Numbered from the stretch's first letter, positions 41,268 to 48,682 are shown. The stretch is DNA of 64,000 bases from Cyanobacteria bacterium SZAS-4 (GCA_018266255.1 JAFEAT010000005.1:1-64000), one strand, 5' to 3'. Numbers and translations: made by a program. The notes: a model not told the origin generated them from the letters alone.

Positions 41268-42308
41268 ATGACTCCCGAAGAGCTTGAAGGAAAATTGACC
41301 GAAGCCGAGCGAAGTGCGCTCACAGCTTTGGATGCCGTGAATGATTCGGCTCAGCTGGAAGAATTTCGGCTCAAGTTTATGGGTAAAAAAGGCGAAGTTA
41401 CAGCCATTTTGAGCGGCGTCGGGCAACTTGACAAAGCCGATCGCGGTCGCGTCGGCTCACTTGCCAATACCGTTAAAACCAATATTGAACAGGCTTTCGA
41501 GAAACACAAGCGGACGTTTTACGACCGCGAGTTGAACGCCAGACTGAGCACAGAGCGAATTGACGTGACATTGCCCGGCACTGGAATGAAGCCAGGGCAC
41601 ATTCATCCACTCACTCAAATCACAAGCGACATTGTCGAAATCTTTCACGGCATGGGCTTCTCCGTCGCCGATGGTCCTGAAGTGGAAACGGACTATTACA
41701 ATTTCGATGCGCTGAACACGCCAGACAGTCACCCTGCGCGCGATTCACAAGACACCTTTTACACCAACATAAATCCTTCGGTTCTGTTGCGAAGCCAGAC
41801 TTCGACGGTGCAAGTGCGGGTCATGGAAGAAAACAAACCACCGTTGCGCATCATCTCTCCAGGCCGTGTCTACCGCAACGAGGAAGTGAACGCTCGCAAG
41901 TATCCGCTCTTCCACCAGCTAGAAGGGCTTCTGATCGACAAAGACGTGACATTCGGTGAGCTGAAAGGATTGCTGACTGAATTCATTCGCCTGTTCCTGG
42001 GCAAACCCTTGAAGACACGATTTCGTCCAGACTTTTTTCCGTTCACTGAGCCTAGCGCCGAACTCGACAGCCAATGCCCGTTCTGCATGGGCACCGGTTG
42101 CAAGGTTTGTGGACATCGCGGCTGGCTAGAGTTGCTCGGATGCGGCATGGTCGACCCGAACGTCTTGCGCGGAGTTGGGATAGACCCTGAAGAATGGAAC
42201 GGATTTGCCTTCGGAATGGGCATCGAGCGCGTCGCCATGCTGAAGTACGACGTCAACGACATTCGACACTTCTTCACGAACGATCTCAGGTTCCTTGAAC
42301 AATTTTGA
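41268..42308 (+). CDS. pheS: Phenylalanyl-tRNA synthetase alpha subunit
   Basis: A 346-residue subunit of the alpha2-beta2 enzyme that charges tRNA-Phe. The N-terminal coiled-coil region (to ~90) is followed by the class II core: motif 1 HPLTQITSDIVEIFHGMGF, the PDSHPARDSQDTFY segment, motif 2 RIISPGRVYRNEEVNARKYP(LF)HQLEG and motif 3 GFAFGMGIERVAMLKY. Full length (typical 330-350). pheT follows after 76 bases with no terminator, so they form a pheST operon. Confidence 0.97.
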   Translation: MTPEELEGKLTEAERSALTALDAVNDSAQLEEFRLKFMGKKGEVTAILSGVGQLDKADRGRVGSLANTVKTNIEQAFEKHKRTFYDRELNARLSTERIDVTLPGTGMKPGHIHPLTQITSDIVEIFHGMGFSVADGPEVETDYYNFDALNTPDSHPARDSQDTFYTNINPSVLLRSQTSTVQVRVMEENKPPLRIISPGRVYRNEEVNARKYPLFHQLEGLLIDKDVTFGELKGLLTEFIRLFLGKPLKTRFRPDFFPFTEPSAELDSQCPFCMGTGCKVCGHRGWLELLGCGMVDPNVLRGVGIDPEEWNGFAFGMGIERVAMLKYDVNDIRHFFTNDLRFLEQF

Positions 42309-42384
42309 TCGATAAGAGCCGCTTGCTGCTTAGAGTACACAGGGTGAAACCCGCATGCACACTTCATTTAACTGAGGATTCCTA

Positions 42385-44934
42385 ATGAGACTGTCCTTCG
42401 ATTGGCTGTCAGAATACGTCGACCTGACCGGCATCACGCCAGAGATGGTGGCGGAAAAGCTCACCATGGGCGCATTTGAAGTAGAAGAAATTCGTAAAGT
42501 CGGTCCAGATATCGAAGGTCCGGTAGTGCTGGGAGAGATTCTTGAGATTCTTCCTCACCCGAATGCCGACAAGATTCGCCTCACTAAAACACGCATCGCT
42601 CCTGGCGCAGACCCACTCGAGATCGTCTGCGGGGCGCAGAATATTGAAGTCGGTCAACGCATTCCAGTGGCATTGCCGGGCGCGAAAGTGATCAATCGCA
42701 AAGATGGAACTGCGCTCGTCATCAAAGCTTCCGCGATTCGAGGTGTGCAATCGAACGGCATGTTGTGCTCACCACCAGAACTGGGAATCGTTCCAGCGGG
42801 GGTCGAAACGCCCGAGAGTTCTGGCATTTTGATACTCAATAAATCGCACGGCGAGCTTGGAGCAGACATCAAGGAGCTTTTCCATCTCTATCCTGACCAC
42901 GTGCTTATCGTCGAACCTCGCTCGAACAGAGGCGATTCATTGAGCGTGATCGGATTGGCCAGAGAAGTTGCGGCTCTGCTGAATCGCCCACTCAAACGCC
43001 CAGACTGGAAATTAGATGTGTCGGAAGACGCTGCTTTGAATTTCGACGTCGCCGTTGAAAACACTGATGACTGCCCATTTTTCACCATACGCAGATTGAG
43101 TGGGCTCAAAGTCGGTCCATCACCAAATCTGATATCTAGACGACTGGAAGCAGTTGGTGTGCGCTCGATCAACAACATTGTCGACGTGACTAACTACGTT
43201 ATGCATGAATACGGACAGCCGCTCCACGCCTACGATATGAGCAAATTGGATAAGGCTGAAATCACCGTTCGGCGCGCCAGACCAGACGAAAAAATGGTGA
43301 CCCTAGACAGCAAAGAACGCACGATGAACAACGAAGTGTTGGTCATTACCAACGGCGACAAGTCAGTTGGTGTGGCTGGTGTAATGGGTGGTGAGAACAC
43401 CGAAATTAGCGACTCTACAACTGATGTGGCACTCGAATCAGCCACGTTCAATCAGGCAAGAGTGCGCCGTGGTGGAAGATTGCTCGGATTGGCCAGCGAG
43501 AGCAGCTTGAGATTCGAGCGTGGTGTCGATGTCGGATCGACAGCAGAAGCCTCGGACCGAGCCACTTACCTCTTCCTAAAATATTGTTCTGGCGACTCGA
43601 CACCAAAAGTCGGCAAGCTCGAGAAGGCAGGGTCGGACGATACCAAGAAAGTTTCCATCGATTTGCGTTTAGGTCAATTGAAACGCTTTCTGGATGCCGA
43701 ATTCACTGTCGAACAGGTGACTGAATATCTGACCCCACTGGGCTTCCAGGTTAGTAAAAAAGACGACAAGGTCGTCTCTGTATCTGTGCCGAGTTTCAGA
43801 CAATCTGACGTAACCAGAGAGATCGACATAGTCGAAGAAGTCTGCAGAATCTGGGGGTACGACAACCTGCCCGTGAGAATGCCGCGCGGTTCGGTAACTG
43901 CCGATCCAGCAGAAGATACAGTGAGTAAGGCACGTTCCATTCTCGTATCTGCTGGTTTGAGCGAAGCCTGGTTAAGCAGTTTGACAGCGGCTGATGTGAA
44001 TCCAGCAACAGCTTCTTACAGCACACAGAATCCAGACACGATCGTAAAGGTCAATAATCCGCTATCTGAAGACCATCAGGTCTTGAGACAAAGTTTGATG
44101 CCGGGGCTGATCAAATGCGCCGCCTACAACCAGGACCACGGACGAAAAGACGTCTGGATCTTCGAAATCGGTCGCACCTACAGTCGTCTTGCACCGGGCG
44201 AAGAAGATATTTTCAAAACAGGCGTGAAAGAAGAATTGAAAGTCGCCGGTGTTCTCATGGGCGACCGAGATATGACTTCGTGGAAGGGCACAGAGACAGT
44301 CGACGCGGATTTTTATACAGCCAAGGGTGTAGTCGAAAACTTGCTCGGGGGCCTGGGCATTGATTTGAAACGGACGAGATTTTTCAATCCGAAGGAAACA
44401 AACATTTTGCATCCTTCCAGAAGTGCTCAAATCGAATTCGATCGCGGTGCATCGAAAAAAGAAAAAGACAACAACAATAACAACAACAATCATCAGCAAC
44501 AGAATCAAAAATCTCAAACCGAACATATCGGACACATAGGCCAAGTTCACCCTGGATTTTCCGATGCTATGGGGCTCAAACAACCTGCGTTCCTTTTCGA
44601 ACTGTCGCTGGATAACCTGCGTGGCTTGAGAAAAGCAAATTCCTTCAAAGAAATCCCAACTGCGCCCGAAACATCCCGTGATTTGACGATCGACCTCGAC
44701 GAACGCGTCGACCACGCGGCTGTCACTTCCTGTATAACCGCAGCAGCAGGTCAGATTCTCAAGCAGATCGAACTTGTAAGTATTTATCAGCCAGCCGAAG
44801 GAAAACGAAGTCTTAGTTACAGACTGAGTTTCCAAGACATACAACGAACCTTAACCAATGAAGAAGTCGAAACCAGCCTGACGAAAATTCGAGAAAGCCT
44901 GGTCAATCGGCTCGGCGCCTCATTCAGACTCTGA
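42385..44934 (+). CDS. pheT: Phenylalanyl-tRNA synthetase beta subunit
   Basis: An 849-residue subunit. Domains in order: tRNA-binding OB fold (EILPHPNADKIRLTKTRI, CGAQNIEVGQ), B3/B4 editing domain (RSNRGDSLSVIGLAREVAAL; VDVTNYVMHEYGQPLHAYD), B5 (VSIDLRLGQLKRFLDAEFT), the class II-like core (QSDVTREIDIVEEVCRIWGY) and C-terminal FDX-ACB anticodon-binding domain (ETSRDLTIDLDERVDHAAV). An Asn/Gln-rich insertion of about 25 residues (~689-714, with seven Asn in a row) interrupts the strand pair before HPGFSDAMGLKQ. Otherwise complete. Confidence 0.96.
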   Translation: MRLSFDWLSEYVDLTGITPEMVAEKLTMGAFEVEEIRKVGPDIEGPVVLGEILEILPHPNADKIRLTKTRIAPGADPLEIVCGAQNIEVGQRIPVALPGAKVINRKDGTALVIKASAIRGVQSNGMLCSPPELGIVPAGVETPESSGILILNKSHGELGADIKELFHLYPDHVLIVEPRSNRGDSLSVIGLAREVAALLNRPLKRPDWKLDVSEDAALNFDVAVENTDDCPFFTIRRLSGLKVGPSPNLISRRLEAVGVRSINNIVDVTNYVMHEYGQPLHAYDMSKLDKAEITVRRARPDEKMVTLDSKERTMNNEVLVITNGDKSVGVAGVMGGENTEISDSTTDVALESATFNQARVRRGGRLLGLASESSLRFERGVDVGSTAEASDRATYLFLKYCSGDSTPKVGKLEKAGSDDTKKVSIDLRLGQLKRFLDAEFTVEQVTEYLTPLGFQVSKKDDKVVSVSVPSFRQSDVTREIDIVEEVCRIWGYDNLPVRMPRGSVTADPAEDTVSKARSILVSAGLSEAWLSSLTAADVNPATASYSTQNPDTIVKVNNPLSEDHQVLRQSLMPGLIKCAAYNQDHGRKDVWIFEIGRTYSRLAPGEEDIFKTGVKEELKVAGVLMGDRDMTSWKGTETVDADFYTAKGVVENLLGGLGIDLKRTRFFNPKETNILHPSRSAQIEFDRGASKKEKDNNNNNNNHQQQNQKSQTEHIGHIGQVHPGFSDAMGLKQPAFLFELSLDNLRGLRKANSFKEIPTAPETSRDLTIDLDERVDHAAVTSCITAAAGQILKQIELVSIYQPAEGKRSLSYRLSFQDIQRTLTNEEVETSLTKIRESLVNRLGASFRL

Positions 44935-45094
44935 TTTCCTCTGGTTCAGACAGCAAGCTGCACTGAATTGACGGATCACAAGCGATCAACGGCTATTTTG
45001 AAAAAATCTTCGTTGATAACGTATTGATGCTCCGGGCGGGGTATATTGAACATACGGTTTTACGGCTTAGGTAGGATGGGCGCTTGGTAACTTG

Positions 45095-48000
45095 ATGTAT
45101 AGACTGACGTTTCGAATCTGGTTGGCTCTCGTATCTGTATTAGTCTTCTTGGCTGCAAGCTACTTCGCGATGAAGCAGTTCCCTACAGCCATGACGGGAC
45201 TGCATGACGCTGTGATTTTGGCAGCGCTCGTAGTTCCGCCAGTGCTCGTTGCTTTCCTCGCCTTTGCCAAAGGTTCGCCCAAACAGAAAATTACCGTCGC
45301 AGCAATCGGAATTGTTTTCGGTTTGATCTACGGAATCGTCGCCAATGTCACCTTCGGAACCACCAAAGTGCTTCCGAATCTTCAGCTTTTGATCAACGAA
45401 TATCTCGTTGGCATCATGGCTCTGGGGGGTGGTATCACAGCCCTGGCTATCTTCTCGCTCAAACCAGCCGGTGAAGTCGAGTCTGCCGTAAAAAGAGGCG
45501 GACCCACAGAAGTTGTCATTCCAGATCAAGAAACAACTTCGACCAAAACATCCAACACAAAGTTACCTGCGCAGTCAGAACCGCTGACAAAGTCACCTGC
45601 TAGCGTTTCCAACACTAATCTGAAGGGAATTCTCGACACGCTTGCACCAGATGAAGATTCATCGACTGACTTACCCGTTACCCCAGCCAAAGGTTTGGCA
45701 GGAAGTTTGCCCGGTGTGAAGTCAGCTGCTCCGGCTCCAGCCAAGCAACCGGAACCTGTGGTCAACCAGACTCCTGCGACGCCGGTCACTGCCGCAGCGA
45801 CGTCTCCAGCCGCAGAGGCACCGGCAAACACCAATCCATCAGATTCACAGACGAACTTGACTGGTCAGAAGAAAGCCACGACCGGGACAGTGGCGTCATC
45901 TACCGCGACACGCTTGCAAGCTCAGAAAAGAAAAAGCACAAGCACATTCACCAAGCTGCAAGCGCTCTCGGCAAGCGGCACAGGTGGAATTCGTCAAAAG
46001 CCGCAAGAAACAACCAGTGGTGATAACGACGCAGACAGCTTGAAGTCAATTCTCGATCGCCTCGATACCAAACAAGAAGACGCATATTCTGCTCCAGACG
46101 AAGTAGAAATGGATTCTTTGTTCGCCCAAGAAAGTTTGCTGTCACCGCCAGAGGTGTCAGAACCGGAACACATTCCAACTCCAGAACCGCCGAAGCCAGC
46201 ACCGACACCAGTCAAAACACCAGATCCACCAAAGCCAGCAGTTACACCTGAACCAGCAAAGCCAGTCGTCACCCCTGCTCCGAAGCCTGTCACACCACCT
46301 GCAGCTTCTACAGCAGCAGCGAAGCCATCAACCTCCAAGCAATACGATTCACCTCTTGCGAAGAAGCCAGAAGCAGCTCCTAGCCTGTCTTCGATGCTCG
46401 ATGCATTAGATGTACCCAAATCAACGAGTTCTTCCAGTCCAGCAGCGAAGACCTCCACATCGGGCACCACCGGTGGGTCGACCGCGAAACCAGTCACGCC
46501 GACTTCGACTCCGAAACCAGCGGTGACTCCGGCGAAACCTACACCACCAGTAGTGCCTAAGGCTCCAACTCCTACTTCAACTCCGAAGCCCGTTGAAGCT
46601 CCAAAACCTGTTGTAAAACCAGAGCCAAAGCCAGAACCAAAACCTGAGCCGAAGCCAGAGCCAAAACCTGAGCCGAAGCCAGAACCAAAACCTGAGCCGA
46701 AACCAGTCGCGAAAGAACCAATCAAATCCGAGGCAATCAAAGAAGAATCTGGGCTCTTTGAGACAGGCTTAGATAAAGAGATCGACGATATCTTCCTCAA
46801 CTTGGTGCCTGCCGAAGCTCAAAAGACCGTAGAGTCCAAGAGCGAGCGCGAAGAAGAGATCACAACGACAGCAGAAGTAACGCACGAAGCCGCAGTAGAA
46901 GTGGAAGAACCCGTTGCTGAAAAAGCTCCTGAAAAAGAAGGCGGGGTATTCGAATCGACAAAGATCGATCAAGAACTAGACGATATTTTCTCGAACCTCG
47001 TGCCAGCTGAAGCACAAAAAGAAGTGGCAAAAGCGGAGCCAAAACCAGCCGAACAAGCCAAGCAGGTTGAAGCGAAGAAAGTCGAAGAGAAGAAACCAGA
47101 GCCGAAACAAGAAGTTAAACCGGAACCCAAGCCAGAACCAAAACCTGAGCCCAAGCCAGAACCAGTGCGCGAACCAGAGCCAGCGAAGAGCGAAGGCATG
47201 TTCGAAGGATCCGGATTGGATCGCGAACTCGATGATATTTTCTCCAATCTCGCTCCATCAGAAGCCCAGCGCAGCGTGACCAACGAGACATTAGCTCGAG
47301 TGCGCGCTGCTGACGCGACTGGCGATCATCCAGCCATCACGCCAGACAATCAAATGCGAAACAAGACTCAAGAAGAGATGTCGTTCGCACCACCATCTGA
47401 AGAAGCTGATGCCAGACAGGAAGAAACGCTTCAAGAAGAAACATCCGAGGAAACCGTCGAACACGACACCGAAAAGTCTGGGAAATTCTCAGAAACCCTG
47501 CATGCAATGCCGAGCCTTCAAGCAACAGTGGAAGGTCTTCTGAACAGCCTTGCCTCTTCTGAGATCAAGACTGAGACAGAATCATTCGCACCGCCAGCGG
47601 CGAAAGAACCGGCGAACGGAAGCGGTGTAGCGACCAAAGTGATGGACTTGATCGAGAGTCTTGAAGAAGCGAACACTGACGCTACAAGCGGCTACAAATA
47701 TGGAGTTGAAGATTACTCCTCTCATGAGTCGCAAGCAGCACAAGAATCAGCTGAAGCCGCAGCTGAATCGAGCACCGGTGATATCGTAAGCGACCTTTTT
47801 GACACACCAAGTAAGGAAGCTAAGGAAGAACCTAACGATGAGTTAGTTACAGAGACTGCTGTCGAAGAAGCGCCTGAAGAAGTAGAAGAAGCTTCGCAAC
47901 CATCAGAAGAAGTAGAAGAAGCTTCGCAACAATCAGAAGAAGTTGCCGAACCATCAGAAGAAGTTGCCGAACCAGCAGAAGAAGCTGCTGAACCGGCAGA

Positions 48001-48682
48001 AGAAGCTGCTGCAGTGGAAGAAGCTGCTGAAAAGGTCGCGGAAGCCGCTGAAGAAACACAGGCAGAAGTTGTCGCTGAAGAAACCAAAGATGAAGCCGAA
48101 GCACGCACAGAAAGCCGTGAAACTGAAGCAGACCGGAAGACCAAGAAAGAGCTGAAGGAATTCGGACGCTTGTCTAGCAAACAAGGCAGCACAGACTTCG
48201 CTTCAGAGACTGCCGGCACGATGAAGACGATCGGCAAACTGCTGATTGAAGTGCAAGCGGTAGAGAACATTATCAAGGCCGGCGAGAGCGGCACCATTGG
48301 TAGTGGTCTCACTACTGCTCGAGTGATCTCAGCCGCACGTGGCGAGGGCATCAAAGCACTGTTAAGTAAAATCGATTCTTACAGCGGTGTAGACGGCAGT
48401 GTAATCGTTGGACACGACGGTCTAGTGATTGCGTCCACTGCCGGTCCAGGAATGGATAAGGACACGCTGGGCGTGCTCTCAGTAGCTTGTCTGAGCACCA
48501 GCAATCTCGCCACTAAGAAGTTGGAAATTGGCAAACTTCGTCAGATGGTTCTAGTGACTGACGCGAAGACCACCGTACTTACTGATGTGGATGTCGGCAT
48601 TCTAGCTGTGTTCCTCGATAACAACGACGTAGGCAAAATCGATGGCTTGCTGGAAGCAATCCACGACACTATCCACGGATAA
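45095..48682 (+). CDS. Giant membrane-anchored Roadblock/LC7 protein with multivalent repeats
   Basis: A 1195-residue protein. Residues 1-~125 hold four membrane helices. A disordered Pro/Lys/Glu/Thr-rich region follows, with P-E-P-K repeats near 507-540 and 664-697. Three ~27-residue repeats occur at about 550-577, 615-642 and 700-727 (pattern G-x-F-E-x-x-x-[LI]-D-x-E-[LI]-D-D-I-F-x-N-L-x-P-x-E-A-Q). Simpler copies such as LKGILDTLAPDE (~176), LKSILDRLDTKQ (~316), LSSMLDALD (~431), VEGLLNSLASSE (~812) and VMDLIESLEEAN (~849) are scattered. An Ala/Glu-rich coil precedes the C-terminal Roadblock/LC7 domain (~1038-1195), seen in SGVDGSVIVGHDGLVIASTA. Roadblock proteins regulate small GTPases. 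ATG 45095 preferred over TTG 45092. Confidence 0.85.
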   Translation: MYRLTFRIWLALVSVLVFLAASYFAMKQFPTAMTGLHDAVILAALVVPPVLVAFLAFAKGSPKQKITVAAIGIVFGLIYGIVANVTFGTTKVLPNLQLLINEYLVGIMALGGGITALAIFSLKPAGEVESAVKRGGPTEVVIPDQETTSTKTSNTKLPAQSEPLTKSPASVSNTNLKGILDTLAPDEDSSTDLPVTPAKGLAGSLPGVKSAAPAPAKQPEPVVNQTPATPVTAAATSPAAEAPANTNPSDSQTNLTGQKKATTGTVASSTATRLQAQKRKSTSTFTKLQALSASGTGGIRQKPQETTSGDNDADSLKSILDRLDTKQEDAYSAPDEVEMDSLFAQESLLSPPEVSEPEHIPTPEPPKPAPTPVKTPDPPKPAVTPEPAKPVVTPAPKPVTPPAASTAAAKPSTSKQYDSPLAKKPEAAPSLSSMLDALDVPKSTSSSSPAAKTSTSGTTGGSTAKPVTPTSTPKPAVTPAKPTPPVVPKAPTPTSTPKPVEAPKPVVKPEPKPEPKPEPKPEPKPEPKPEPKPEPKPVAKEPIKSEAIKEESGLFETGLDKEIDDIFLNLVPAEAQKTVESKSEREEEITTTAEVTHEAAVEVEEPVAEKAPEKEGGVFESTKIDQELDDIFSNLVPAEAQKEVAKAEPKPAEQAKQVEAKKVEEKKPEPKQEVKPEPKPEPKPEPKPEPVREPEPAKSEGMFEGSGLDRELDDIFSNLAPSEAQRSVTNETLARVRAADATGDHPAITPDNQMRNKTQEEMSFAPPSEEADARQEETLQEETSEETVEHDTEKSGKFSETLHAMPSLQATVEGLLNSLASSEIKTETESFAPPAAKEPANGSGVATKVMDLIESLEEANTDATSGYKYGVEDYSSHESQAAQESAEAAAESSTGDIVSDLFDTPSKEAKEEPNDELVTETAVEEAPEEVEEASQPSEEVEEASQQSEEVAEPSEEVAEPAEEAAEPAEEAAAVEEAAEKVAEAAEETQAEVVAEETKDEAEARTESRETEADRKTKKELKEFGRLSSKQGSTDFASETAGTMKTIGKLLIEVQAVENIIKAGESGTIGSGLTTARVISAARGEGIKALLSKIDSYSGVDGSVIVGHDGLVIASTAGPGMDKDTLGVLSVACLSTSNLATKKLEIGKLRQMVLVTDAKTTVLTDVDVGILAVFLDNNDVGKIDGLLEAIHDTIHG
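46611..46715 (+). repeat. 12-bp coding repeat encoding Pro-Glu-Pro-Lys
   Basis: Repeated CCAGAGCCAAAG / CCAGAACCAAAACCTGAGCCG units in frame in the Roadblock gene; a shorter related block lies at about 47095-47165. Confidence 0.85.

Follow-up and report, generated by a model that had tools for sequence, protein, structure and literature searches.

A membrane-tethered Roadblock protein of Obscuribacterales with repeated acidic helices that probably dock MglA

The DNA analysed here, called the window below, is a 64,000-nucleotide stretch of Cyanobacteria bacterium SZAS-4 (JAFEAT010000005.1:1-64000; coordinates are those of the whole stretch), and at positions 45095-48682 on its + strand an open reading frame (ORF) encodes a protein of 1195 amino acids (aa) (ATG at 45095, coding to 48679; a TTG at 45092 is also possible) in which N-terminal transmembrane helices, a long disordered middle and a C-terminal Roadblock/LC7 domain follow one another. 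On the sequence comparisons described below we consider it probable that this protein belongs to a control system of type IV pili and acts there as a Roadblock scaffold, tethered to the membrane, with several docking sites for MglA. Since its repeated helix matches the one by which MglB grips the Ras-like GTPase MglA, the scaffold would probably use its several arms to collect MglA in the neighbourhood of type IV pili. The host is an uncultured, non-photosynthetic relative of cyanobacteria, and named matches (e.g., to Candidatus Obscuribacter phosphatis, L146) put the window in the order Obscuribacterales. The layout of the ORF had been proposed in an earlier note made from the sequence alone, and it was borne out by Pfam, hydropathy and AlphaFold2 (AF2) modelling.

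The repeated acidic helix and its conservation

The disordered stretch carries three strong copies of a short acidic helix of the form (h)D-x-x-h-D-x-h-F (h = hydrophobic), all on the + strand: R1, GLFETGLDKEIDDIFLNLVPAEAQKTV (46751-46831, 24.5 bits), R2, GVFESTKIDQELDDIFSNLVPAEAQKEV (46943-47026, 27.9 bits) and R3, GMFEGSGLDRELDDIFSNLAPSEAQRSV (47195-47278, 27.3 bits). AF2 helices (residues 559-568, 625-631 and 708-717, respectively) fall on the cores of all three in an otherwise largely unstructured tail. When the disordered stretch was shuffled, none of 500 shuffles gave a window of at least 15 bits, and a hidden Markov model (HMM) of the motif, run against the whole genome at E<1e-7, found the three copies in this protein, three more in one paralogue and nothing else. 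The earlier note had counted about nine copies; its three long repeats stand and the remainder do not, as the short forms ILDxL, LLNSL and LIESL fit the motif poorly (-4.5 to 0.8 bits) and are mostly not kept outside the genus, and there are two weak candidates, EVEMDSLFAQ (46100-46129, +; 7.6 bits) and GDIVSDLFDT (47777-47806, +; 5.6 bits).

Comparison with the orthologue from the same genus (L057) shows the repeats to be 88% identical (proportion of nonsynonymous change, pN, 0.08) and the linkers 45% identical (pN 0.29), and over a set of 21 orthologues the residues of the repeats have a mean conservation of 0.456 and those of the linkers 0.118. The outcome that the earlier note had named as fatal to its idea, unconserved motif copies or equally conserved linkers, is thus the reverse of what these values show. 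The conservation of the repeats was matched by 33 of 20,000 random window triples from the disordered stretch, a sample that included windows on the stretch's other conserved elements. These data also bear on the possibility that the repeats are merely recent duplications in a fast-evolving tail with no specific function. The linkers are indeed low-complexity PEPK-type repeats that vary freely, but the motif copies keep 82-93% identity even where two species are nearly saturated at synonymous sites, the linkers do not, and different classes and protein families retain the motif; we regard such drift as refuted by the conservation data and give it practically no probability.

Likeness to the MglA-binding helix of MglB

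A scoring matrix was built from 106 Obscuribacterales copies of the motif, with MglB left out, and compared with a background of 372,547 windows. Residues 150-159 of Myxococcus xanthus MglB (DDDIDNLFSE) score 26.8 bits on this matrix, above the training median of 24.2, and only two of the 372,547 background windows reach that value, the top-scoring one shown coming from a fragment of the window protein. The best clearly unrelated background protein is a DsbD at 19.4 bits, which looks like chance and was set aside. The M. xanthus MglB chains in the PDB end in GSPFAEISDDDIDNLFSE (one chain has M instead of I), and in structure 6IZW residues 147-157 are the C-terminal (Ct) helix seen on MglA, where it occupies an allosteric pocket formed by alpha5, beta2 and the beta2-3-loop and gives MglB its exchange activity; an Asp150-152 mutant of MglB loses GTPase stimulation (PMC6785124).

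The Roadblock domain that ends the window protein (48353-48610, +; Pfam, predicted fold and Foldseek) matches Robl_LC7 (PF03259) at residues 1087-1172 with E 3e-8 and 33.7 bits, against a Pfam gathering cutoff of 23. It is the only Pfam match in the protein, and the scan gave no N-terminal receiver domain such as RomR has. The AF2 model of residues 1022-1195 (174 aa) shows the alpha-beta-beta-alpha-beta-beta-beta-alpha Roadblock fold, which Foldseek aligns to M. xanthus MglB (6izw_C) with a target-normalised template-modelling score (TM) of 0.79; archaeal Roadblock structures match it as well.

The FliM (LSQxEIDALL) and CheZ (QVDDLLDSLGF) peptides bear a superficial likeness to the motif, which could therefore be imagined to be a docking peptide of that kind for a CheY-type response regulator. 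Compared with 26.8 bits for the MglB Ct-helix, the E. coli peptides reach only 2.7 bits (FliM) and 5.6 bits (CheZ), and there are no chemotaxis genes among the window protein and its conserved neighbours, so this reading was rejected as very improbable.

The earlier note had suggested a multivalent scaffold for one partner, perhaps a small GTPase module, and a search of the genome for MglA-like GTPases. That outline is well supported, copy number aside, given the MglB-helix match and the presence of MglA: the search found three such GTPases (192, 196 and 193 aa) with genes at C1:202684, C2:276435 and C11:156831, the window gene being on contig C37. A cytoskeletal partner, which the note had also entertained, is unsupported in this analysis. 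The main MglA is 86-100% identical across the order, and its orthologue is present in 36 of the 38 relatives of the order that have Roadblock proteins; the remaining two genomes are only 65-66% complete. MglA is absent from all 21 sampled genomes of the rest of the class, 20 of which also lack Roadblock proteins, and present in 10 of 10 further genomes tested. The residues that line the MglA pocket are almost always retained or exchanged for a similar one: L64 is L in 30/30, I67 is V or I in 30/30, K181 is K or R in 30/30 and K185 is K in 29/30.

A contrast between lineages points the same way. In Tanganyikabacteria-type genomes the canonical, mglA-adjacent MglB ends in KIDDLF, AIDNLF, KLSDLF or KIQDLF, and a single motif copy is present in the motif-Roadblock protein, whereas in those Sericytochromatia whose MglB lacks that ending the motif-Roadblock protein has 3-8 copies. 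A trace of this kind is expected if an MglA-docking helix has been relocated, although it is one lineage contrast and not many independent events. In the coupled mglB-mglA operons L207, L201, L202 and L199 MglB ends in (I/L)xDLF or IDNLF, unlike in those Sericytochromatia. Among plasmids, a search for MglB yielded a single record, from Deinococcus, in which the C-terminus of MglB reads MLDDLLG and an ADP-ribosylation-factor-like gene adjoins.

The window protein is nevertheless not an MglB by the usual definition. It shares with M. xanthus MglB, which is a Roadblock GAP/GEF acting on MglA (6IZW, PMC6785124), the Roadblock fold, an acidic D-x-x-I-D-x-(L/I)-F helix on a flexible tether that contains the core of the MglA-binding helix, and an MglA in the same genome. 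It differs in that its gene is neither coupled to nor beside mglA, it is anchored by four transmembrane helices with a 900-residue tail, and in place of a single acidic Ct-helix after the Roadblock domain it has several copies before that domain and terminates in the Roadblock helix. It probably partners MglA by means of several copies of the MglB helix.

Several observations weigh against this assignment. The full 26-position motif HMM scores MglB at only 4.1 bits (its best place being the Ct-helix), which leaves a core of 10 residues to carry the match. When that HMM was run against PDB sequences at E<=10, MglB was not among the matches, because its short core lies at the chain end, and RIAM peptides came out on top; since the RIAM talin-binding peptide matches the HMM better than MglB does, the shape can arise by convergence. 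The pocket of Thermus thermophilus MglA is similar (I/V/K/R), so pocket conservation is weak evidence that supports the assignment without discriminating. The co-occurrence of Roadblock proteins and MglA follows clades and represents few independent events, neither an mglA nor the pilBTC locus lies close to any of the four Roadblock genes in this genome, and the full-length orthologues L040 and L042 have no strong motif copy.

Relatives, gene neighbours and type IV pili

Roadblock proteins were found in all 35 sampled relatives of the family and in 3 of the order, and in 1 of 21 other class members (G058). Two long architectures recur, the transmembrane type of the window and an anti-sigma type, whose N-terminal region resembles an anti-sigma zinc finger and whose gene adjoins an extracytoplasmic function (ECF)-like sigma gene. 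Full-length transmembrane-type orthologues carry 1-6 motif copies in 24 of 26 cases, and full-length anti-sigma-type proteins carry 1-3 in 23 of 23. The Roadblock proteins of Sericytochromatia and Tanganyikabacteria-type genomes have 1-8 copies of (L/V)D(S/N)xLDxLF, and in other sampled Cyanobacteriota the short Roadblock proteins whose ORFs were read have no motif, none reaching 13 bits. The Roadblock protein of G058, which belongs to another family of the class, lies at a pheT-pilT locus (L094) and has no motif, and the genome has no MglA; it is a natural negative control. The literature searched contained nothing on Obscuribacter Roadblock proteins.

The motif's partner might instead be the Roadblock domain itself (in cis, in trans or on a stand-alone 121-aa Roadblock protein), which would make a self-assembling membrane cluster whose Roadblock dimer alone contacts MglA. 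Almost all motif copies do lie in Roadblock-bearing ORFs, and in eukaryotes disordered proteins attach by helices to LC7/LAMTOR Roadblock dimers. In M. xanthus, moreover, the C-terminal helix of RomR binds the Roadblock protein MglC with nM affinity (PMC12719032). We nevertheless think this unlikely: G058 combines a motif-free Roadblock protein with the absence of MglA, the best match of known structure, the MglB Ct-helix, sits on MglA and not on Roadblock (6IZW), and the motif also occurs, if rarely, in proteins without a Roadblock domain. Because it is found in such proteins, at the C-terminus of zinc-ribbon proteins and in a DUF4139 insertion, its partner can act in trans.

These carriers deserve brief description. 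Small zinc-ribbon proteins have the motif near the very C-terminus (LDDEAIDKIFERL; LDDAAIDKIFEKIG), at L106:1246-1560 (+) on contig C41, at L220 in G001 and at L096 in G021, where the zinc-ribbon-motif stretch is fused to a Roadblock domain; a DUF4139-like protein (L219, G001:C66) has one copy in a disordered-looking insertion and no Roadblock domain. The paralogue with three motif copies and a Roadblock domain is 1532 aa long (L005:5436-10034 (-), contig C10). Its N-terminus resembles an anti-sigma zinc finger with only a weak zf-HC2/antisigmaE match, and it stands beside an ECF-like sigma gene (L005:10056-10628 (-)) and pepA, near a PATAN/DUF4388 gene. This arrangement is conserved in the family, and the sigma factor is possibly controlled through MglA. 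Among the transmembrane-type orthologues, L042, L044, L061 and L077 have two Roadblock domains per chain, one of them within the disordered tail.

In Obscuribacterales the usual gene order is pheS-pheT-[transmembrane Roadblock]-bcp-dsbD, and the conserved upstream neighbours pheS and pheT (41268-44934, + in the window) are shared with pheST-[motif-Roadblock]-pilBTC loci of Tanganyikabacteria-type genomes. These neighbours (pheS, pheT, bcp, dsbD) are not those of an actinobacterial conservon CvnB operon (histidine kinase, CvnC and CvnD GTPase). The order pheS-pheT-[motif-Roadblock]-pilB-pilT-pilC is seen in L183, L185 and L187, and in L186 as far as the contig reaches; the motif-Roadblock gene precedes pilBTC in L179, L181 (with a short Roadblock gene between), L182 and L184, and precedes pilB in L180 (the pil families of these sister-group loci were verified). 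Linkage to pil genes thus takes the form of a place directly before pilB in Sericytochromatia and Tanganyikabacteria-type genomes and beside pilT in G058, where the Roadblock gene lies between pheT and pilT, and is not found in Obscuribacterales. The pil-adjacent loci of the sister groups and G058 therefore make a type IV pilus locus the most likely ancestral context. The window genome has pilB-pilT-pilC in the same order at a separate locus (L216), where a second, shorter pilB-like ORF beside pilB (L216:5117-6202 (+)), its ATPase part broken by a TAA, is possibly a decayed copy.

The same neighbourhoods could mean that the motif docks another type IV pilus or signalling protein, such as the MshEN domain of PilB or a PATAN/DUF4388 protein, with the Roadblock domain handling MglA separately. 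In favour of this are the ancestral neighbours pilB-pilT-pilC, and PATAN proteins that adjoin mglBA in Sericytochromatia (L203) and lie near the anti-sigma-type paralogue. It would leave unexplained the match to the MglB C-terminus and the complementarity of copy number with MglB, and we know of no motif-like sequence in any PilB or PATAN ligand; we judge it quite improbable.

The remaining features of the protein are as follows. The four transmembrane helices are predicted by hydropathy and AF2 at residues 2-26, 38-56, 62-87 and 102-119 (45098-45451, +), and the charges of the N-terminus, loop 2 and the segment after the fourth helix suggest a topology in which the long tail is cytosolic. In the AF2 model of the full protein, built on an alignment of 22 sequences, the ~900-residue middle has a predicted local distance difference test (pLDDT) value of about 35-45, and apart from those on R1-R3 the only tail helices are at 125-133 (directly after the fourth transmembrane helix), 286-292, 315-321 and 730-737. 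A basic, S/T-rich block, SSTATRLQAQKRKSTSTFTKLQALSASGTGG (45896-45988, +; TRLQAQKRKSTSTFTKLQALSASG), is conserved more strongly than anything else in the disordered stretch; it has the short helix 286-292, is kept in most transmembrane-type orthologues and is a possible phosphorylation site or membrane or partner contact. A conserved AF2 helix follows, DSLKSILDRLD (46034-46066, +), which scores 0.8 bits against the motif; it and TRLQAQKRKSTSTFTKLQALSASG are separate motifs, distinct from the acidic repeat. The conserved extension before the Roadblock domain (EFGRLS...MKTIGKLLIEVQAVENIIKAGE; 48158-48352, +) is present too in anti-sigma-type paralogues. In the neighbouring gene, PheT has an Asn/Gln-rich low-complexity insertion, KEKDNNNNNNNHQQQNQKSQTEH, at 44458-44526.

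Proposed mechanism and its meaning

In the MglA-docking scaffold that we favour, each motif helix would be a docking site equivalent to the MglB Ct-helix, seated in the alpha5/beta2/beta2-3-loop pocket of MglA, and several tethered helices would accumulate MglA at the membrane, close to a single Roadblock domain. The raised local affinity may promote nucleotide exchange, contact for GTPase activation, or both. The ancestral site of action would be the PilB/PilT/PilC machine, and the protein would therefore likely set where or when MglA licenses pili, while anti-sigma-type Roadblock and zinc-ribbon proteins with the same arms may draw on one MglA pool.

Paxillin-type LD-motif scaffolds, eukaryotic disordered adaptors with several LD-type amphipathic helices, have a similar working principle, and the best PDB matches of the motif HMM are RIAM peptides; no homology is claimed, and the partners differ. 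M. xanthus offers partial parallels. There MglA-GTP stimulates type IV pili via SgmX and PilB (PMC7519303), and SgmX, an MglA-GTP effector that places PilB, resembles the window protein in the MglA-type IV pilus link proposed here, but is a tetratricopeptide repeat protein of different fold and motif. In RomR, MglC is bound by the disordered region together with the acidic helix at the C-terminus, and these can stand in for the MglB Ct-helix (PMC6785124, PMC12719032). Its layout is similar in that an extended disordered part bears an acidic helix contacting the MglA/Roadblock module; unlike the window protein, RomR has a receiver domain, one helix and no transmembrane or Roadblock domain. The earlier note knew of no described system of this design. 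A Roadblock protein with a tethered acidic docking helix is in fact known in MglB (PMC6785124), and it is the multi-copy, N-terminal, membrane-tethered layout of docking helices that appears to be undescribed.

We suggest tentatively, as an idea with somewhat less than an even chance of being right, that the docking helix of MglB became a portable multi-copy motif in non-photosynthetic Cyanobacteriota, so that one MglA pool is read by a membrane Roadblock protein whose origin is the type IV pilus locus, a soluble anti-sigma-type Roadblock protein (with an ECF-like sigma factor) and small zinc-ribbon adaptors. If so, surface motility and transcription would be wired to one Ras-like switch by multivalency, as in eukaryotic LD-motif scaffolds. 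If the scaffold reading of the window protein is true, a disordered scaffold with many docking sites, fixed to the membrane, would organise a bacterial Ras-like GTPase, which is a familiar principle in eukaryotic adhesion and trafficking but one for which we found no description in MglA systems. A portable MglA-docking motif would then become searchable elsewhere, MglA would be linked to an anti-sigma factor by a concrete peptide, and a gene that lacks other annotation but is conserved throughout Obscuribacterales, an uncultured order, would have a candidate function.

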